A stretch of DNA of 64,000 nucleotides. It comes from Janthinobacterium sp. 64 (GTDB taxonomy: Bacteria; Pseudomonadota; Gammaproteobacteria; Burkholderiales; Burkholderiaceae_D). The notes beneath the pieces were generated by a model. That model saw only the letters and a list, made by a program, of their open reading frames with translations, did no database searches and was not told the DNA's origin. Below, piece by piece: positions 1,933 to 10,919 of this stretch (position 1 is its first letter; each line of letters opens with the position of its first letter). The DNA lies in the NCBI RefSeq assembly GCF_002813325.1, contig NZ_PHUG01000001.1, forward strand, positions 1,054,001 through 1,118,000, read 5' to 3'. A program made the translations under genes and the position numbers.

Positions 1933-4470
1933 ATGAAAACCTTGCACACTCCGACTCCCTCCCCGCTGCGCCTGACGGCCCTGGCCCTCGCCATCATGGC
2001 CGTCTTCAGCGGTCCAAGCCAAGCACAAGCGCAAGATGCGGATGGCTTGCCGGCCGCCACCGTCGTCGTCAGCGGCCAGCGCGCCAGCCTGCGCAACGCC
2101 ATCGCCGCGCAAGAGAAAGCCGACAACATCATCAGCGTCATCAGCAGCGACGATATCGGCGGCTTGCCCGATAAAAACGCAGCCGAAGCGCTGGCCCGCT
2201 TGCCGGGCGTGTCCGTGCAGCGCGACCAGGGCGAAGGCCGCTACATCACGGTGCGCGGCCTGGGGCCGGACTTGAACGCGGTGACCATCAACGGCGCGCT
2301 GGTGCCGTCGCCGGAAGCGGGCCGCCGCGCCGTGGCGCTCGACATCCTGCCGGCCGGCCTGATCCGTACACTGGAAGTCTCGAAAACGTTACTTCCAGAA
2401 ATGGACGCCAATTCGCTGGGCGCCACCATCGAAGTCAAATCGCTGTCCGCCTTCGACTTGCCGGGCAAGCTGCTGTCGGCCAACGTGGGTGCCAGCCATG
2501 ATGAAAAGACGGGCAAGACCAGCCCCAGCGGCGGCGCCCTGTGGGCCCAGCGCTTCCTCGATGGCAAGCTGGGCGTGGCAGCCGGCCTGAGCGCGGAAAA
2601 GCGCTCGTTCGGCTCCGATGACGTGGAAACGGGCGGCGCCTGGAGCAAGGGGAAATTATCCAGCCTGGAGTTGCGCGACTACCTGCCCGTGCGCAAGCGC
2701 GGCGCGCTGGCCGTCAATCTCGATTACCGCCCCGAAGCGGGCAACAGCTGGTTCTTGCGCTCTTTTGTGAGCGAATTTTCCGACAATGAAGTGCGCGACC
2801 GCCTGACCATCAGCAATATCGCGGGCGGCAGCCTGGCCGAAGGAGCCACAGCCAGCGCGCGCGCCGAGCGCCGCATCCGCCAGCGCAAGTACACGCAGCA
2901 AGTGCGCTCGCTGGTGCTGGGTACGCAACAGAAATCGGGCGACTGGACGCTGGACGTGAAAGGCGGCCTGAGCCGCGCCACCGAGGACACGCCGGAATCC
3001 CTGAACGACGGCCGTTTCCGCGGCCTCAGCAACTTTAGCGGCATCAGTTTCAATGGCACCGAGCAACCATTGTTGAGCGGCCCCGCCTCGCTGTACGATC
3101 CGGCCAGCTACGCGCTCAACGCCATCACCCTGCAAAAACGCTACTCGAAGGACAATGAACACCATGCACGCATCGACCTGGCGCGCAAGTTCGACATCGC
3201 CATCCTGAAGTTCGGCGCGAAAGTCAGCCGCCGCGAAAAGACCAATGACACGGACCAATGGGCGTACAACAGCAGCAAGGCCACGAGCGGCAATTACTGG
3301 GGCGCCGGTTCCACGTCAATGAGCAACTTCGTGCAAGGCCACAACCTCGATTACGACCTGGGCAACATCGGCGTGGCGCTGGACCCGGCCCTGATACGCG
3401 CCCGTGTCGCGGGCCTCGACCGTACCAAGGCGCGCCTGGCCACGGAATCGATCATCAACGACTACCGCATGCATGAAGACATCAACGCCATGTATGTGCA
3501 AAACAGCTACGACTTCGACGCCTGGCACATCCTCGGCGGCGTGCGCGCCGAGCGCACCAGCTTTGAGGCTGCCGGCTCGCAAGTGGACAGCGCCGGCGTC
3601 GCCACGCCCTTGACGCGCGAACGTTCGTACACCAACTGGCTGCCGAACCTGCAAGCCCGCTATGACGTCGATCAAAAGACCAGCGTGCGGGCCGCGTGGA
3701 CGCAAGCCGTCGTGCGCGCCAACTTCAGCCAGCTGGCGCCGGGCATCAGCCTGGCCAGCAACACGGAAGCCGTGATCGGCAACCCGGACTTGAAACCGCT
3801 GAAAGCCAACAACCTGGACCTCGGTATCGAGCGGGTGCTGGGCAATGACGGCGTGATGTCGGCCTACGGTTTCTACAAGGACATCAAGAATTTTACCTAC
3901 ACGACGAATCTGGCCGGCACGGGTCAGTGGGCCAATTACACCTCGGCCACCTCGTATGCGAACGGCGACGCGGCCAAAGTCAAAGGCATCGAACTGGCCT
4001 ACATGCAGCCGCTGCGCATGCTGCCGGCACCGTTCAACAAGTTGCTCGTCGGCGTCAACGGCACCCTGAGCACCTCAAGCGCGCAAATCGGTCGCTACGA
4101 CAAGGCGAGCAAACAACAGATGAATCGCGACATCCGCCTGCCGGGCCAGTCGAACCAGGTCATGAACTTGATGCTGGGCTATGAAACGGGCCCCGTCAGC
4201 GCCCGCCTGGCCCTCAACTACAAGTCGCCGTATCTGCTGGAAATGGGCAACGATATTCTCGATCCAAGCCAGGACCATATCGTCGACAGCCAGAAGCAGC
4301 TCGATTTCTCGCTGTCGTACCAGATCAACAAGCAGTTCCAGGTGGTCTTTGAAGCGGCAAACCTGAACAACGAGAAATACTATGTCTACCAGGGCACGAA
4401 GCAATACAACGTGCAGAATGAACAATACGGCCGCACTTTCAAAGTGAGCCTGAAAGCCAGCGCCTTCTGA
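1933..4470 (+). CDS. TonB-dependent receptor, probable phytate/inositol-phosphate uptake
   Basis: 845 residues. A Sec signal peptide ends near AQA (residues 31-33), followed by a TonB-box-like ATVVVSG (42-48). The plug domain carries LPDKNAAEALARLPGVSV and YITVRGLGPDLN, typical of the Xanthomonas/Caulobacter-type TonB receptors. A 22-strand barrel would fill the rest and ends in the aromatic terminal residue F usual for outer-membrane proteins. The stop overlaps the start of the phytase gene, so receptor and enzyme are one transcription unit under the Pho box at 1866. The substrate is inferred from that partner: phytate or its hydrolysis products. Confidence 0.88.
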   Translation: MKTLHTPTPSPLRLTALALAIMAVFSGPSQAQAQDADGLPAATVVVSGQRASLRNAIAAQEKADNIISVISSDDIGGLPDKNAAEALARLPGVSVQRDQGEGRYITVRGLGPDLNAVTINGALVPSPEAGRRAVALDILPAGLIRTLEVSKTLLPEMDANSLGATIEVKSLSAFDLPGKLLSANVGASHDEKTGKTSPSGGALWAQRFLDGKLGVAAGLSAEKRSFGSDDVETGGAWSKGKLSSLELRDYLPVRKRGALAVNLDYRPEAGNSWFLRSFVSEFSDNEVRDRLTISNIAGGSLAEGATASARAERRIRQRKYTQQVRSLVLGTQQKSGDWTLDVKGGLSRATEDTPESLNDGRFRGLSNFSGISFNGTEQPLLSGPASLYDPASYALNAITLQKRYSKDNEHHARIDLARKFDIAILKFGAKVSRREKTNDTDQWAYNSSKATSGNYWGAGSTSMSNFVQGHNLDYDLGNIGVALDPALIRARVAGLDRTKARLATESIINDYRMHEDINAMYVQNSYDFDAWHILGGVRAERTSFEAAGSQVDSAGVATPLTRERSYTNWLPNLQARYDVDQKTSVRAAWTQAVVRANFSQLAPGISLASNTEAVIGNPDLKPLKANNLDLGIERVLGNDGVMSAYGFYKDIKNFTYTTNLAGTGQWANYTSATSYANGDAAKVKGIELAYMQPLRMLPAPFNKLLVGVNGTLSTSSAQIGRYDKASKQQMNRDIRLPGQSNQVMNLMLGYETGPVSARLALNYKSPYLLEMGNDILDPSQDHIVDSQKQLDFSLSYQINKQFQVVFEAANLNNEKYYVYQGTKQYNVQNEQYGRTFKVSLKASAF

Positions 4471-4487
4471 TGATGATGTTACCTACC

Positions 4488-6347
4488 ATGAAAAAAACCG
4501 TACTCTGCAGCGCCTTGCTGGCTGCTTTTTACCTCGCGGGCACGGTGCAAGCCGCGCCGGCCCAGGCTGTTCCTTCCTTCACACAGGAAGCGGAAGAGCT
4601 GGCCCGCCTGCCCGGCGGCGGCTGGTTGACGTTAGACAAACACGGCTTGCGCTTGTTCAACGCGGCCGGCCAGGAACAGGACCGCATCGCCGTGCGCGCC
4701 AAGCAGCTCGACACGCGCATCGATGGCGGCAAAGTGCTGGCCGTCTTCCTCGAAGCGGACACGCAGCGCCCGCTGCCCGTGACGGTCGATGTGCCGGCCG
4801 GCAAGCTGGTCAAGCTGGCGCCGTTTCCCGTGCCGACGTTTTCCGTGGAAGCATCGTGTTTGTACCGCGACGCGCAGCAGCTCGATCATCTGTTCTTGAT
4901 CGGCAAGGATGGACAAGCGGAACAGTGGGTGATGCAGGGCGAACAGCGTCAGCTGGTGCGCAAGCTGGCCTTGCCGCCGCACGCGAAACATTGCCGGGTC
5001 GACGATGGCGCGCAGCGCCTGCTGGTCAGCGAGGCCAACATGGGCGTGTGGGCGTATGACGCCGAATCCGAAGGCATGGGCAAGCGCGAAGTCGTGGCCC
5101 TGCGCAAGCCGTATGGCCAGCTGGATGGCGGCGCTGGCGCGCTGGCCGTGTTGCCCGGTGGCGTGGCCGTGCTCGACGGCAAGGCGGAAAAGCTGCGCCT
5201 GTTTGCGCATGAAGCTGGCAAATGGACGGCACAGCCAGCCCAGGCGGTGGCCCTGAACGTGCGCAAAGGCGACAGCCAGCTGGCGCTGGACAAGGAATCG
5301 CTCTTACTGCGCGGCAAGAACGGTTGGCAAGCGCGGCCCTTGAAGTGGACAGGCAAGGCGGAAACCCAAGCAGCGGTAGCCTTCATCGCCCCGCAAGCGC
5401 AGACGGAACCGATGGCGCGCCAGGGCGACGCGGCCGACGACCCGGCCATCTGGCTGGCCAGCGATCCTGCCAATACGCGCATCCTCGGCACCAACAAGAA
5501 GCAAGGACTGCTCGTCTACGACCTGCAAGGTAAGCAAACTCAGCTGCTGGAAGTGGGCCGTTTGAACAACGTCGACGTGCGGCAGAACATCAGCTTTGGC
5601 GGCAGCAAGGTCGACCTGGCCGTCGCCACCCAGCGCGACGACAACAGCATGATGCTGTTTACCATCAATGCCAGCGGCGACGTGGCGGAAGCGGGCCGCT
5701 TCCCTACCGGACTGAAAAGCATCTACGGCATGTGCCTGTATCAACCGGCCGGGGGCGGCGTGCAAGCATTCATCAACGACAAGGACGGCACTTTCCAGCA
5801 ATACAGCATCGGCCTGGAAGGCAACAAGTTCAGTGCGACTCTGTTGCGCAGCTTCAAGGTCGCCACGCAACCGGAAGGCTGCGTGGCCGACGACGCCAAT
5901 GCCAGACTGTTCCTGGGCGAGGAAACGCGCGGCATCTGGACCACCTCGGCCGACGCCGCCAAGCCCGATGCCCTCACCATGGTCTTGCCCGTGGGAGCGC
6001 ACCTGACGGCCGACGTGGAAGGCATGGCCATCTACCGCCAGCCGGGCGCCAAGGCCAACACCGGCTACCTGATCGTCTCCAGCCAGGGCGACAGCAGTTA
6101 CGTGGTGCTCGACGCCAAAGCGCCGTACAAAGTGCGCGGCCGCTTCAAGGTGGGCTTTAACTTGCCGGCCGGCATAGACGGCACCTCGGAAACGGATGGC
6201 CTCGACGTCACGTCCGCCAACCTGGGCGGCGCGTATGCGCAAGGCATGCTGGTGATCCAGGACGGCTACAAGCGCCTGCCGGACGGCCCGCAGAACTTCA
6301 AGTATGTGGCGTGGAGGGATGTGGCGAAGGCCTTGAAGCTGGAGTAA
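4488..6347 (+). CDS. Beta-propeller 3-phytase, tandem-domain
   Basis: About 619 residues with signal peptide MKKTVLCSALLAAFYLAGTV. The C-terminal half (from about residue 305) has beta-propeller phytase signatures: DDPAIWLASDP, NNVDVR, MFTINASG and ADVEGMAIYR. These include the acidic residues that bind calcium and phosphate. The N-terminal half looks like a second, diverged propeller without the DDPAIW motif, as known for dual-domain phytases in which one half is weak or inactive. It hydrolyses phytate outside the cytoplasm. An in-frame run of ATG codons begins at 4470, overlapping the receptor stop, so translation may be coupled from there. The start at 4488 fits the signal peptide better. 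Confidence 0.9.
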   Translation: MKKTVLCSALLAAFYLAGTVQAAPAQAVPSFTQEAEELARLPGGGWLTLDKHGLRLFNAAGQEQDRIAVRAKQLDTRIDGGKVLAVFLEADTQRPLPVTVDVPAGKLVKLAPFPVPTFSVEASCLYRDAQQLDHLFLIGKDGQAEQWVMQGEQRQLVRKLALPPHAKHCRVDDGAQRLLVSEANMGVWAYDAESEGMGKREVVALRKPYGQLDGGAGALAVLPGGVAVLDGKAEKLRLFAHEAGKWTAQPAQAVALNVRKGDSQLALDKESLLLRGKNGWQARPLKWTGKAETQAAVAFIAPQAQTEPMARQGDAADDPAIWLASDPANTRILGTNKKQGLLVYDLQGKQTQLLEVGRLNNVDVRQNISFGGSKVDLAVATQRDDNSMMLFTINASGDVAEAGRFPTGLKSIYGMCLYQPAGGGVQAFINDKDGTFQQYSIGLEGNKFSATLLRSFKVATQPEGCVADDANARLFLGEETRGIWTTSADAAKPDALTMVLPVGAHLTADVEGMAIYRQPGAKANTGYLIVSSQGDSSYVVLDAKAPYKVRGRFKVGFNLPAGIDGTSETDGLDVTSANLGGAYAQGMLVIQDGYKRLPDGPQNFKYVAWRDVAKALKLE

Positions 6348-6391: not shown

Positions 6392-6805
6392 CTATGTGCG
6401 CGGCATATCGATATGAAATGGCAGCCGCTTGCCGCATAAGTCCACCATGCCCGACACAAGCAGGCGTCGCGCCGACAATTCAATGATGTTGACGGCCGAT
6501 ACGTCGCCGTACTCCATCATATAGATACCCGACTCGTCCGCCTCGGCATGCGTATCGGGCATCCCGATCGCAAACGCTCCTTCCTGCCCTTGCGGCATGC
6601 GCAAGCCGTGCAGGAAAAACGCCGGCGGATACAGCGCCCACGACCATGGCGCATCATCGGGCTCGGTCAAGCGCATGAACACATCATCATCCCCATGGAT
6701 ATCGATGTTCAGTTCCACCATGCCAGTGCCGTCTTCTTCCAGGCGAATGCTTGATTTCGCGATATCCACTTCAAAATTGGTGTCGCCGATACTAAAAACA
6801 GTCAT
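6392..6805 (-). CDS. Hypothetical protein
   Basis: 137 residues, acidic, no signal peptide or membrane segment. It starts MTVFSIGDTNFEVDIAK and has alternating hydrophobic strands, suggesting a small beta-rich cytoplasmic domain. I do not recognise the family. It stands alone, convergent with the phytase gene and divergent from the sigma-54 cassette at 7041. Size, acidity and isolation resemble orphan immunity-type proteins, but nothing specific supports that. An in-frame ATG and normal coding composition make it a likely real gene. Confidence 0.6.
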   Translation of the reverse strand: MTVFSIGDTNFEVDIAKSSIRLEEDGTGMVELNIDIHGDDDVFMRLTEPDDAPWSWALYPPAFFLHGLRMPQGQEGAFAIGMPDTHAEADESGIYMMEYGDVSAVNIIELSARRLLVSGMVDLCGKRLPFHIDMPRT

Positions 6806-6861
6806 TCAATACTACTCCGGGTTAGAGGTAACTATACGGCGCGACAGGCAGCAAGTGCGGC

Positions 6862-6907
6862 TGCAATCGGTGATTGCAACACTGTAAGCTGAATCTGTCG
6901 TGACAGA
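6862..6907. promoter_or_regulatory. Two inverted repeats, candidate activator sites
   Basis: TGCAATC-GGT-GATTGCA (6862-6878) and TCTGTC-GT-GACAGA (6894-6907) are perfect dyads in the 285-base gene-free stretch between the gene starting at 6805 and that at 7091. They lie about 135-180 bases upstream of the sigma-54 promoter at 7041, the usual distance for enhancer-binding protein sites. The role is inference. The rest of the stretch shows nothing else recognisable. Confidence 0.4.
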
Positions 6908-7040
6908 GATGGTCTGCATCGGCTCAACATCATGATGGCAATGATTAACATCGACAGCTTGTCGGTCATCTTTACACTTGCTCCTCGACTGCCACGGGCA
7001 ATTTCTGAGCAACCCTTGATTTAACAGCGCTCCCACGGAC

Positions 7041-7055
7041 TGGCATGGTTAATGC
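7041..7055 (+). promoter_or_regulatory. Putative sigma-54 (-24/-12) promoter
   Basis: TGGCATGGTTAATGC matches the RpoN consensus TGGCACGnnnnTTGC except at two positions. It keeps the invariant GG and GC with 10 bases between them. Transcription would start near 7066, about 25 bases before the ATG at 7091. Sigma-54 control by PrsK/PrsR is known for PEP-CTERM protein genes, and the first gene downstream is of that type. Confidence 0.6.
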
Positions 7056-7090
7056 GTAGCGAGTCCCATGATGCCAACCCGGGAATTTCC

Positions 7091-7645
7091 ATGCTCAATA
7101 CACTACACAAATCGTTCGCTGGCGCGCTGGCCGCACTCATACTGCTCGCGCTCGCGCTCGCACACAACGCGCACGCGCTGCCGCTACTCACGCTCACGCC
7201 AACACAGACCACCATGCCGGTCTCGGCCGGTGGCAGCGTCCAAATCACCGGCAGCATCATCAACCGGACCAACACGGCGCTGGACGCGACTGACCTGTTC
7301 CTGAATTTCGGCAATTTCGATCCAGGCGCGCTGACGCCACAGCAAACGTTGGGACTGGTCCTGTTCAGCATTCCCAGTTTTTCGTTCAGGGACAATGTTG
7401 CCCTGTTCACTATCGACGTGGCGGCCAACGCGCTGCCCGGCGCGCATACGCTCGACGTGATGCTGCAGGACCTTAGCGGCAACTTCTCCGACGTCGTCAG
7501 CTTCAGCTTCCTGGTCGACCAAGTGGTGGCCGTATCGGAGCCGCCCACGCTGGCCATCATGCTGGCCGGCCTGGCCGGCATGACCGGCATGACCGGCATG
7601 ATGCTTTGCCGTACTCACTCCAACCATGGGGGCAATCATGGCTAG
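7091..7645 (+). CDS. Exported protein with PEP-CTERM-like C-terminal sorting signal
   Basis: About 184 residues from ATG 7091. The signal peptide starts MLNTLHKSFAGALAALILLA and ends near AHA. A beta-rich domain follows (TPTQTTMPVSAGGSVQITGSI), with strands like a cadherin or immunoglobulin fold. The C-terminus has VSEPPTLAIMLAGLAGM, a hydrophobic stretch, then basic and histidine residues. This is a variant of the PEP-CTERM anchor recognised by exosortase, with EPPT in place of PEP. It would be cut and released outside the inner membrane. It is the first gene of a five-gene cassette and overlaps the next gene by 8 bases. An upstream in-frame start (7052) would lie inside the sigma-54 element and is unlikely. 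The internal MTGMTGM repeat is odd. Confidence 0.7.
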   Translation: MLNTLHKSFAGALAALILLALALAHNAHALPLLTLTPTQTTMPVSAGGSVQITGSIINRTNTALDATDLFLNFGNFDPGALTPQQTLGLVLFSIPSFSFRDNVALFTIDVAANALPGAHTLDVMLQDLSGNFSDVVSFSFLVDQVVAVSEPPTLAIMLAGLAGMTGMTGMMLCRTHSNHGGNHG

Positions 7646-8357
7646 CAAGCCACAGATCGTCACGGGCAACGCCACGGTCATCAACACCGGCGAAGACGTC
7701 ATCGTCTCGGTCACTGTGACCAACATCGGCAGCGAGACCGCCAGCAAGGTATTCCTGACCGGCGCCACATTGGGTGCGGCACCGCGTATCAGTCCGCAGA
7801 ATTTTCCAGTGTACATCGGTAGCCTGACGAACGAAGGAAGCGGCAGCATAGGCGCCAGATTCAGCCACATTGGGCTAACGCCCGGCCAGCAATATCTGCT
7901 GACCCTGCGCGGCACCTACGAGGCCGGCGGCACGCTGGGCTTCGTCGTCAATCGCTATGTGATGATTCCGCAGCCGGCGCCGTATGCCTCGCCGCGTCTG
8001 CGCTCGCATGTGAACGTACTGCTGAGTAACGCCACGTGGACCTACACCATCTTCAACGACGAGCCGCTGGGCAGCTCCTTGTACATCGCCGCCTTCCACC
8101 TCGACATCGTGGCACCCACCACCGTCACCGGCACGCCAAACGGCTGGCAGTCCGAGTCCGACCTGATGACCTATGTGGGCTGGATTTCCGGTGATGCCCA
8201 TATCGCGCCCCAGCAAGCGCTTGGCGGTTTCGAGATCCAAAGTCCGACCGGGCGCTCCGAGTCCACCTCCTACAGCCTGATCTCCTGGGACCATGCGGCC
8301 AACAATGCCGGACCGGTGGGGCTGGACACGGTACTGTCGCCATCCAGAGCACGTTAG
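7638..8357 (+). CDS. Beta-sandwich (CARDB-like) hypothetical protein
   Basis: 239 residues. The opening VTGNATVINTGEDVIVSVTVTNIGSETASKVFL is the pattern of CARDB-type or DUF11-type adhesion domains, which are often extracellular. There is no obvious signal peptide, which is odd for such a domain. It may be exported together with a neighbour, or it may be a C-terminal part split from the preceding exported protein. ATG 7638 has GGGGG upstream and overlaps the stop of the previous gene (ATGGCTAG). ATG 7626 is an alternative. Its stop is directly followed by the start region of the Tat protein. I do not recognise a specific function. Confidence 0.6.
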   Translation: MASKPQIVTGNATVINTGEDVIVSVTVTNIGSETASKVFLTGATLGAAPRISPQNFPVYIGSLTNEGSGSIGARFSHIGLTPGQQYLLTLRGTYEAGGTLGFVVNRYVMIPQPAPYASPRLRSHVNVLLSNATWTYTIFNDEPLGSSLYIAAFHLDIVAPTTVTGTPNGWQSESDLMTYVGWISGDAHIAPQQALGGFEIQSPTGRSESTSYSLISWDHAANNAGPVGLDTVLSPSRAR

Positions 8358-8366
8358 GTGAACCAC

Positions 8367-9278
8367 ATGAAAACCTCAGACCATACAATACTCGATGACA
8401 TCGCACGCACGCTCGCTGGCGTCACCTCGCGCCGCGCCGCACTGAAAATGGTCGTGTTCGGCCTGGGCGGCATGACCCTGGCCCGGTTCGGTATCGGCAA
8501 CGCTTGGGCGGCGCGCAATTGCCTGTGCAATAACCGCGTGTACGACTCCGCCCTTGCCTGCTGCACGCCCAACGGCGTGGTGCAAAAGCACCCCATTGCC
8601 AATCTGGCGCACTGCCCTTCCCGCACCGCCAACCTGACGCATACCTGCACCGCCAATGGTTGCGGCGCGGCCGGATCGTGGGTGCCGCCGCCGCAAAGTT
8701 ACTTCGGCGTCAGCTTCGTTCCCGCTTGTAATACTCACGATTGTTGCTATGACAAGTGCAACGAGAACAAGACAGCGTGCGATACCAGCTTCCTTAGCGC
8801 GCTTAACGCTATTTGCACCGCCGCCTTTCCCGGCACGGGCAGCATACAGAACATCAAGCGCGGCGGTTGTCTGTCCCAGGCGCAGACCTATTACACCGCG
8901 GTGTCCTCGTATGGCCAAAACGCGTATGACGACGCCCAGAGGCTCTCGTGCGACTGCTGCCCGCCTGAGGCTTGCCGCACCTGCGCCGGCGGCAGTTGCG
9001 GCGCCTTCCCGGCATGCGTCGGTGGCGGCGACTGCGTGTGCTTTACGACGCCGAATGGCTCGGGCGTCTGCGTGCACGGCAATACTCCTTGTGCCGGTTT
9101 GCCCACCTGCAGCTCCAACGACGATTGCCCACCGGGATACGGTTGCGCCGGCTCAAATTGTTGCGGCGGTACCGCACTGTGCGGGCCACTGTGCTCCGAC
9201 CTGACGAACTCATCGACCATCTCGCCGTTTGGTGGCGCTCGACGTTACGATGGACCTACCCTGGGAGGAAAGAGATAA
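8367..9278 (+). CDS. Tat-exported, cysteine-rich phospholipase A2-like protein
   Basis: 303 residues. The N-terminus has a twin-arginine signal (TSRRAALKMVVFGLGG, about 20-35) ending near AWA. After it come about 32 cysteines. Residues 121-128 read CNTHDCCY, the secreted phospholipase A2 active-site core (C..HD.CY) with catalytic H124 and D125. NGCGAAGS (98-104) may be the calcium loop. The segment from about 195 on is a disulfide-rich tail (CDCCPPEACRTC, CPPGYGCAGSNCC). The activity would be phospholipid hydrolysis outside the cytoplasm, but this is unproven. Tat export suggests folding, perhaps with a partner, before transport. The stop overlaps the next gene as TAATG. GTG 8358 is an alternative start. 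Confidence 0.7.
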   Translation: MKTSDHTILDDIARTLAGVTSRRAALKMVVFGLGGMTLARFGIGNAWAARNCLCNNRVYDSALACCTPNGVVQKHPIANLAHCPSRTANLTHTCTANGCGAAGSWVPPPQSYFGVSFVPACNTHDCCYDKCNENKTACDTSFLSALNAICTAAFPGTGSIQNIKRGGCLSQAQTYYTAVSSYGQNAYDDAQRLSCDCCPPEACRTCAGGSCGAFPACVGGGDCVCFTTPNGSGVCVHGNTPCAGLPTCSSNDDCPPGYGCAGSNCCGGTALCGPLCSDLTNSSTISPFGGARRYDGPTLGGKR

Positions 9279-10342
9279 TGGACGCATTTATATTGCCATG
9301 CACCGTCTTACGCCTGCTGTTAGCCGGCGTCTTGCTGATGGCCGCTGCCGGCAAGCTGCTGCACCGGCAAGCGTACGCTCAAACGCTGGCGGAATTCGGT
9401 ATTCCCACTGCGTTGCGGCCGCAGCTGGCGTGGCTGATGCCGATGTGCGAACTGGCGATCGCCTTCATGCTGACGCTGGCGATGTCCACGTGGTGGAGCG
9501 CCATCGCCGGCGCCGCACTGCTGGCGCTCTACAACGCCGTGCTGGCGTACAAGCTGCTGCAGGGCCAGCGGCCCAGTTGCAACTGCTTCGGTCAGCAGGA
9601 CGCCACGCCGATCGGCCCCACTACGCTGCTCAGGAACGGGGTACTGCTGTCGATGGCGGGCGCATTGATTTACGCTGGTCCGGCATACGCGCATGCGCCT
9701 TTATGGCCGCATCTGGCCGAGATATTGCTCACGGCGCCGACGCTGTCGCTATGCGTCGCCGTGATGGCGCTGCAATGGTGGCTGCTACAGCATGCGCTGC
9801 GCCAGAACGGGCGCCTGATCTTGCGCATGGATACGCTGGAGCTGCGACTCGACGCCGCCAACATTGAGCCACTGCATGCGGTCGAGATGCGGCCGCGCGG
9901 ACTGGCAATCGGCAGCATGGCGCCGGACTTCGCGCTGCCGGAAATGGGCACCGGCGAATCGATTACGCTGGCGCAGCTCAGGTCTGCCGGCCTGCCGGTG
10001 CTGCTGGTATTTTCCGACATCGCCTGCGGCCCTTGTGCCGAACTGGCGCCGCGCATTGAGCGTTGGCATCGGCAATACCAGGGTTGCATCAGCATCGCCG
10101 TCATCCTGCGCGTCGATGCCGGACAGCTGCACCGTCCACATACGGCCGGCTCCTGCACCACGCTGCTGCAAGAGGACCGCAAGGTATCCGAGCGCTACGA
10201 CGCGCTGGTGACTCCGAGCGCTGTTCTCGTGTCCGCCGAGGGAACGATCGCATCGCATCTGGCGCTGGGATCAAAAGACATATACGATCTACTGGAGTCA
10301 ACCGCACCGCAGATCGATGAAAACCGGAATATCGCCGCTTAA
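9278..10342 (+). CDS. MauE (DoxX-like) membrane domain fused to thioredoxin-like domain
   Basis: 354 residues. Residues 1-175 contain about five hydrophobic segments with the MauE/DoxX hallmarks AAAGKLLHR and CNCFG (101-105). From about 205 to the end is a MauD/TlpA-like redoxin: GSMAPDFALPEMGTGESITL, then VLLVFSDIACGPC with the CGPC redox pair at 250-253. In methylamine dehydrogenase clusters, separate MauE and MauD proteins make the disulfides of the Cys-rich small subunit. Here they are one chain next to a Cys-rich Tat protein, which suggests the same job. ATG 9278 has GGAGG 10 bases upstream and overlaps the previous stop. The longer frame from 8972 is a shadow. Confidence 0.8.
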   Translation: MDAFILPCTVLRLLLAGVLLMAAAGKLLHRQAYAQTLAEFGIPTALRPQLAWLMPMCELAIAFMLTLAMSTWWSAIAGAALLALYNAVLAYKLLQGQRPSCNCFGQQDATPIGPTTLLRNGVLLSMAGALIYAGPAYAHAPLWPHLAEILLTAPTLSLCVAVMALQWWLLQHALRQNGRLILRMDTLELRLDAANIEPLHAVEMRPRGLAIGSMAPDFALPEMGTGESITLAQLRSAGLPVLLVFSDIACGPCAELAPRIERWHRQYQGCISIAVILRVDAGQLHRPHTAGSCTTLLQEDRKVSERYDALVTPSAVLVSAEGTIASHLALGSKDIYDLLESTAPQIDENRNIAA

Positions 10343-10697
10343 ATCCCCACGACAGGCAAGCCGGCTACTGCTGACGGTTGGCATTTGCCTGCACCTGATC
10401 ACCGCATTATTTCTGGCCAACGGTGGCGGCGTCGTCTTTCGGGCGGCGCTTTGCGCCTGGTCGCTGGCGCCCTACCTATTGCTGGCACTTGCGCAACAGC
10501 GCAGCAAGACTTGCGGCGCTCTGCTAGCCGGCGCCTTGCTGATGCTGCTGCTGGACGCGCACACCTTCTGGTCGGTATTCGTGGCCCCGCAAAGCTCCAC
10601 TGCCGCATTGGCTCTGCTAATGGCGCCGTTGTTCAACCTGTTCTGCATAGCGCCGTTATCGATTGCAGCCAACGTGTGGCTGGGCCGCAGGCGATAA
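10317..10697 (+). CDS. Small four-helix membrane protein of the MauE cassette
   Basis: 126 residues with about four hydrophobic segments (near 18-36, 44-58, 66-80 and 95-120) and basic ends. It overlaps the preceding fusion gene by 26 bases in another frame, so it is clearly part of the same operon and its last gene. I recognise no family. It could help membrane assembly of the redox protein. It has only three cysteines and no thioredoxin motif. Confidence 0.6.
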   Translation: MKTGISPLKSPRQASRLLLTVGICLHLITALFLANGGGVVFRAALCAWSLAPYLLLALAQQRSKTCGALLAGALLMLLLDAHTFWSVFVAPQSSTAALALLMAPLFNLFCIAPLSIAANVWLGRRR

Positions 10698-10774
10698 TTG
10701 TTACCGATGTTAAGAATCAAAATGCTAAAGGCCGTTCGATCAGCAAGGGCTCTTTCTGTCCATGCGCAAGCAAT

Positions 10775-10788
10775 GCTACAACTGTAGC
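10775..10788. promoter_or_regulatory. Inverted repeat in intergenic region
   Basis: GCTACA-AC-TGTAGC is a perfect dyad. Its core TACAACTGTA has the form TACAnnTGTA used by BlaI/CopY-type repressors. It lies in the 222-base gap between the cassette and the exporter gene at 10920. No such regulator is seen in the window, so its role is unknown. Confidence 0.3.
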
Positions 10789-10919
10789 GTATTTTGCAAC
10801 ATGGTCTCCAGAAAAGAAGCCGCGATCCACCCGCCATGTCAGCAAACGCACAGTGAAATCTCCGCAGCTTACCAATCTGCCAGCGACTGCCAGCCTCAGG
10901 CGTATTAAAATACCGCCCC

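Follow-up and report, generated by a model that had tools for sequence, protein, structure and literature searches.

A Janthinobacterium gene cassette with a predicted Tat-type phospholipase A2 and a MauE-redoxin fusion recurs in other bacteria

Analysis of a 64,000-nucleotide (nt) stretch of the Janthinobacterium sp. 64 genome (contig NZ_PHUG01000001.1, positions 1,054,001 to 1,118,000; hereafter the window) centered on a block of five genes, g1 to g5, at window positions 7091 to 10697. The explanation that we favor, and regard as reasonably probable, is that this cassette produces a phospholipase A2 (PLA2), g3, that is secreted or lies in the envelope, and supplies it with g4 as a dedicated oxidative-folding partner, as MauE and MauD are for MauA. 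In the proposed mechanism, g3 would exit the cytoplasm through the twin-arginine translocation (Tat) pathway by means of an extended leader and would then need many disulfides for its 32 cysteines, and g4, placed in the inner membrane, would be the disulfide-forming and shuffling partner dedicated to it. The first gene product, an immunoglobulin (Ig)-domain protein putatively sorted by exosortase, may be a surface anchor or adaptor, and g2 may be a beta-sandwich partner, perhaps carried through Tat with g3. Gene order, protein families and folds, catalytic and redox motifs, purifying selection, and the joint absence of g3 and MauE support this explanation at the sequence level; from these we infer catalysis, Tat export, the redox direction, the anchoring, and the roles of g1, g2, and g5. 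The cassette product is predicted to be at the surface or secreted.

A first-pass annotation of this DNA had described five overlapping or abutting genes, and the coordinates, families, and recurring order agreed with it. Overlaps join g1/g2, g3/g4 (TAATG), and g4/g5, and a 9-nt gap lies between g2 and g3. Its pairing of a Tat phospholipase-type protein with adjoining disulfide machinery also held; g3 exceeds the PF06951 cut-off and g4 that of PF07291. In profile searches, g1, g2, and g5 did not reach curated family cut-offs. The open-licence literature searched (titles and abstract openings) yielded no description of the cassette among the matches listed. What is new is the combination of genes; the parts themselves are already known.

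The order g1-g2-g3-g4 was kept in 11 out of 11 cassettes, that of the window and 10 others, from two phyla (Janthinobacterium sp. SUN073 and G168 are one locus by their coordinates and were counted once). When public genomes were scanned with the g3 alignment, 44 loci were recovered, of which four were full length: SUN073, a Terriglobia metagenome-assembled genome (MAG), Roseateles noduli, and a Rubrivivax MAG. At none of the 40 core-only loci was a relative of the window g1, g2, or g4 found in the DNA available around them, some of these contigs being only 3 to 5 kb. Among 392 same-family genomes, nine matched g3, namely, the window's own, two more of the genus (94% identity), five of another genus, g11 (42 to 44%), and G060, with a weak, core-only match. 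Outside the Janthinobacterium cassettes, g3 identity was 42 to 45%. A lack of conserved gene order in every other genome would have spoken against the first-pass annotation, but the order is conserved, for g1 to g4 in 10 of 10 other cassettes. g5 was matched only in Janthinobacterium cassettes; no relative was found in the eight others. The 16 database relatives of g5 come from Janthinobacterium, two Duganella, and others, and the five-gene form is present in Janthinobacterium and probably in Duganella-type relatives. Of the 23 g2 matches from the protein database, 8 have a longest contig equal in size to that of a g3 match (for example, 43556 and 157653), and one g5 match likewise has 43556 as its longest contig. 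These equal sizes suggest that the matches concerned lie on common contigs. Finally, the ratio of nonsynonymous to synonymous substitution rates (dN/dS) among Janthinobacterium copies was 0.19 to 0.54 for g1 to g5, except for g1 against SUN073 (0.79). Judged by these ratios, the genes evolve under constraint (purifying selection) between the Janthinobacterium copies.

The family and motifs of g3 point to a PLA2. It scored 44.7 bits against PLA2G12 (PF06951; gathering cut-off, 34), and its relatives L021 and L022 scored 47.2 and 42 bits, respectively; against the prokaryotic PLA2 family PF09056, it did not reach the cut-off (23.5 of 29.4 bits). H124-D125 and C138-D139 were invariant both in alignment A1 (25 of 47 database matches plus the window) and in all 11 cassettes, as was the NGCG loop in the latter. 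On the basis of PLA2 enzymology, we take the H124-D125 dyad and the second Asp (D139) to be active-site residues. Because the His-Asp pair, the second Asp, and the loop were kept in every cassette, we expect g3 to be an active enzyme. Its predicted Tat export follows from a twin arginine, a hydrophobic stretch, and an A-x-A-type cut site (SRRAALKMVVFGLGGM...NAWA), recognized by eye, also across A1. A loose pattern for the extended leader fits 25 of the 26 A1 rows. In P0020 the fit is spurious and lies upstream of the true place, which the alignment shows; P0045 carries KR, and P0050 is without its N terminus. A 25-base stretch in the leader region (8449 to 8473) recurs unchanged at other places in 20 of 40 genomes of the genus (row count), and also at G000:C1:4603440. 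PLA2G12-type domains are found in other settings as well: two large repeat proteins (L030, above the cut-off, and L025, just below it), the RHS-repeat protein P0053, and Vibrio phage 1.097.O.

Several observations connect g4 with g3. MauE and MauD function in disulfide formation in MauA of methylamine dehydrogenase. g4 scored 88.5 bits against MauE (PF07291; cut-off, 27) and 34.0 bits against AhpC-TSA (cut-off, 26), and both of its Cys motifs (C-x-CFG and CxPC) were kept in 11 of 11 cassettes. The MauA, MauB, MauG, and amicyanin families were not matched by g1 to g5 in profile searches. A g2 profile matched 14 of the 392 family genomes, six of them without a g3 match. Four of these six, strong matches that all belong to genus g40, yielded no g3 genome-wide and no MauE within the 16 kb around g2; one of the four keeps a redoxin whose first Cys is lost (SAPC), and three retain a short PEP-tailed g1. 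The remaining two are G008, a partial match with g1-like and g2-like stretches in a single long frame, and G349, a weak match (E value, 8.6e-4). Related arrangements were seen on a Caballeronia plasmid (L170, 4058 to 6060), where a MauD-like redoxin is followed by a Cys-rich Tat-type protein, and in Streptomyces NBC_01450 (L171, 3935 to 5467), where MauE, a redoxin, and a Cys-rich part are fused in a single protein. Moreover, the leader of MauA from the Paracoccus mau locus, FDDMVEKLSRRVAGQTSRR, resembles that of g3, LDDIARTLAGVTSRR. The kept Cys motifs, the joint absence of g3 and MauE in g40, the Caballeronia and Streptomyces parallels, and the MauA-like leader together suggest that g4 serves g3. 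Since the MauE/DoxX and redoxin families are broad, g4 could instead be a general redox protein that sits in the operon without serving g3; its linkage to g3 in 11 of 11 cassettes and the missing MauE beside g2 in the four g40 genomes make this very improbable. A wider form of the favored explanation, which we put forward tentatively, is that MauE plus a MauD-like redoxin could be a general client-dedicated folding device, each copy tied to one Tat-exported Cys-rich client with a loosely shared leader (FD...R..AG.TSRR). Methylamine dehydrogenase would then be its first known client, phospholipase A2 the second, and the Cys-rich proteins of Caballeronia and Streptomyces further ones.

Table 1. 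Positions of cassette genes and related features in the window
Feature	Positions	Strand	Description
Sigma-54-type -24/-12 candidate	7041..7056	+	TGGCATGGTTAATGCG; score 15/17 (authors' own scale), shuffle P 0.016-0.024
g1	7091..7645	+	184 amino acids (aa); signal peptide and Ig-like domain, with a PEP-CTERM-like tail of VSEPPT, a hydrophobic stretch, and R
g2	7638..8357	+	239 aa; two beta-sandwich domains, signal peptide not visible
g3	8367..9278	+	303 aa, 32 Cys; Tat leader, group XII-type PLA2 core, Cys-rich C-terminal part
Tat leader of g3 (predicted)	8367..8510	+	conserved stretch LDDIARTLAGVTSRR up to twin arginine
PLA2 core of g3	8655..8960	+	NGCG loop, C121-x-x-H124-D125-C-C-Y128, C138-D139
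g4	9278..10342	+	354 aa; fusion of a MauE-type membrane domain (CNCFG) with a MauD-like redoxin (CGPC)
g5	10317..10697	+	126 aa; small hydrophobic/membrane protein

Some observations weigh against the favored explanation. First, Y128 is replaced by W in all five g11 copies, and the structure model of g3 is weak outside the core (mean predicted local distance difference test score [pLDDT], 67). Second, g4 reached only 18.3 of the 188.6 bits that are the cut-off of the MauD equivalog TIGR02661. Third, the MauE search in g40 covered the 16 kb around g2 rather than whole genomes, and the absence may mean loss or a gene never gained. Fourth, the likeness of the MauA and g3 leaders is a lead, given a short stretch and a control of insufficient size: of nine Tat-like open reading frames (ORFs), the five with the pattern were all g3 relatives and the four others were without it. 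Fifth, the second phylum is represented by a single MAG contig. Finally, g2, which has no visible signal peptide, is kept in g40 without g3, and this speaks against g2 being a mere companion of g3.

The g40 genomes also bear on what g1 and g2 do. The modeled fold of g2 is a two-domain beta-sandwich (AlphaFold2; pLDDT, 86.5) that looks like extracellular adhesion modules; its alignment, A2, comprised 20 of the 23 database matches (minus P0063, P0075, and P0076), the window, and L021 to L023. Hitch-hiker subunits cross via Tat with a partner, according to an excerpt of PMC6719666, and by analogy g2 could cross as a hitch-hiker of g3. Because g2 survives without g3 in g40, such travel would not be its sole role. 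A relationship between g1 and g2 was not detectable by comparison. In L164 (623 to 3262), a single frame of 879 aa combines a stretch resembling g1, an internal one resembling a PEP-CTERM, another resembling a signal, and a domain like that of g2. In a rival explanation, g1 and g2, as a PEP-CTERM surface pair, would form the functional core, to which g3 and g4 are an optional add-on with the PLA2 fold serving as a nonenzymatic scaffold. The persistence of g2 and a short PEP-tailed g1 without g3 (L160 to L162), the single L164 frame, and the Tyr-to-Trp change in five g3 copies would fit such a core. However, a scaffold need not retain the His-Asp pair, the Asp, and the NGCG loop, which all 11 cassettes have, and we consider this explanation quite unlikely.

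The PEP-CTERM-like end that the first-pass annotation ascribed to g1 is clearer in its relatives than in the window copy. E150-P151 was invariant in 11 of 11 cassettes, and the tail reads VPEP or LPEP in the eight outside Janthinobacterium but a degenerate VSEP, with the first Pro changed to Ser, in the Janthinobacterium copies. The window g1 was absent from the genome's 21 PF07589 matches at an E value of 1, and a TIGR02595 match was not listed for it either; among three scanned relatives, L070 (21.8 bits) and L021 (17.3) passed the TIGR02595 cut-off of 16 bits and L022 was not listed. The tail nevertheless makes g1 a putative exosortase-sorted protein, and the genome carries the apparatus. 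Profiles found all three components that the first-pass annotation had asked for: exosortase (two PF09721 matches, 256.7 and 228 bits; cut-off, 25.7), PrsK (789.8 bits; cut-off, 300), and PrsR (724.7 bits; cut-off, 502.6). XrtA-type EpsB_2 and FemAB proteins are also present.

The candidate promoter is less widely shared. The -24/-12 site (GG-N10-GC type) proposed upstream of g1 (Table 1) is common to the three Janthinobacterium copies, lying at the same place (-49/-50) in SUN073 (L064) and G315 (L065) with a score of 16, but nothing as good was found in the eight other cassettes, where the best sites up to 450 bp from the presumed start of g1 scored 12 to 14 of 17 (shuffle P, 0.15 to 0.69). 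Because these eight are without a comparable site, sigma-54 control would not seem to be a hallmark of the cassette. The window holds 21 sites scoring as well on both strands, including the candidate itself. Of the genome's 21 PF07589 loci, 14 other PEP-CTERM genes (L082 to L095) were scored for sigma-54 sites, L096 and six others being left out, and two were strong: L093 (17/17) and L094 (15.5/17). For the two upstream dyads of the first-pass annotation, a search of 6800 to 7095 (arms of at least 7 nt, at most 40 nt apart; without a chance control) gave two inverted repeats, one of which overlaps the promoter candidate itself. RpoN control of the window cassette is plausible. The first-pass interpretation holds in part: for gene content, gene order, the phospholipase-type Tat protein next to disulfide machinery, and the exosortase, PrsK, and PrsR context. 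RpoN control was not established.

The distribution of the cassette is patchy. The whole block was present in 3 of 40 genus genomes and g3 in 5 of 17 genomes of g11; g3 matched 1 of 399 genomes in the order sample (its own) and 4 of 398 in the phylum sample, where only its own was full length and the other three were weak local matches. No g3 match was found in plasmid records. In SUN073 and G315, the block is flanked by genes other than those in the window. Window positions 6856 to 10833 form a variable slot within the genus that holds other ORFs in other genomes; in the cassette-free G305, 248 bp replace it (L115), and four more genomes (L108 to L111) match from 10708 onward, just past the g5 stop codon (10697). 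Because the distribution is patchy, the flanks differ, and the slot is variable, the cassette seems to have been gained and lost as one block. Just upstream of the slot, genes for a TonB-dependent receptor and a phytase occupy 1933 to 6347 and meet at 4470.

Two further explanations concern the purpose of the cassette, and either is compatible with g4 folding g3. In the first, g3 would be a secreted phospholipase that damages the membranes of competitors or predators, and g2 or g5 would act as the protector. The PLA2G12-type domains in P0053, L030, L025, and a Vibrio phage and the patchy, position-switching distribution are in keeping with such antagonism, which we nonetheless hold to be rather unlikely, given that g1 to g5 matched no secretion, immunity, or toxin families in family profile searches, that g5 was not found in eight cassettes, and that g2 is kept where g3 was not found. 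The second, a nutritional role in which a surface phospholipase releases fatty acids or phosphate from environmental lipids, gains from the adjoining TonB receptor and phytase genes in the window genome; the different neighbors of the SUN073 and G315 cassettes count against it, and we judge it unlikely.

To our knowledge, the folding of very disulfide-rich proteins after Tat export is little understood, and MauE and MauD are known mainly from methylamine dehydrogenase. With a self-contained cassette that has a single, clear enzymatic client, MauE/MauD function could be tested by a simple lipase assay in a laboratory strain; the cassette also places a bacterial group XII-type PLA2 in a conserved genetic setting.

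Among known systems, the mau operon of Paracoccus denitrificans has MauE and MauD beside the disulfide-rich MauA with its twin-arginine leader, and the cassette has similar domains, a Cys-rich client, and a similar leader. However, its MauE and MauD are fused, and the client is a phospholipase A2 rather than a quinoprotein subunit. With the group XII secreted PLA2s (PF06951), g3 shares the domain, the NGCG loop, and the HD and CD residues, whereas g3 is bacterial and has a Tat leader, an extra Cys-rich C-terminal part, and an operon with a MauE-redoxin. The prokaryotic and fungal PLA2s (PF09056; 1faz and 4aup) have the core fold and catalytic region in common with g3, but their solved chains of just 113 to 125 residues are without its Cys-rich tail. 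Finally, the Aquincola PEP-CTERM gene pepA, controlled by PrsK/PrsR/RpoN, has an RpoN-dependent start behind TGGCAC/CTGCTT, as given in an excerpt of PMC9850573. The likeness lies in the PEP-CTERM-like tail of g1, the -24/-12 site type, and the XrtA-type gene set; the difference is that in Janthinobacterium g1 the first Pro of the PEP motif is Ser and that the other cassette lineages are without a comparable site.
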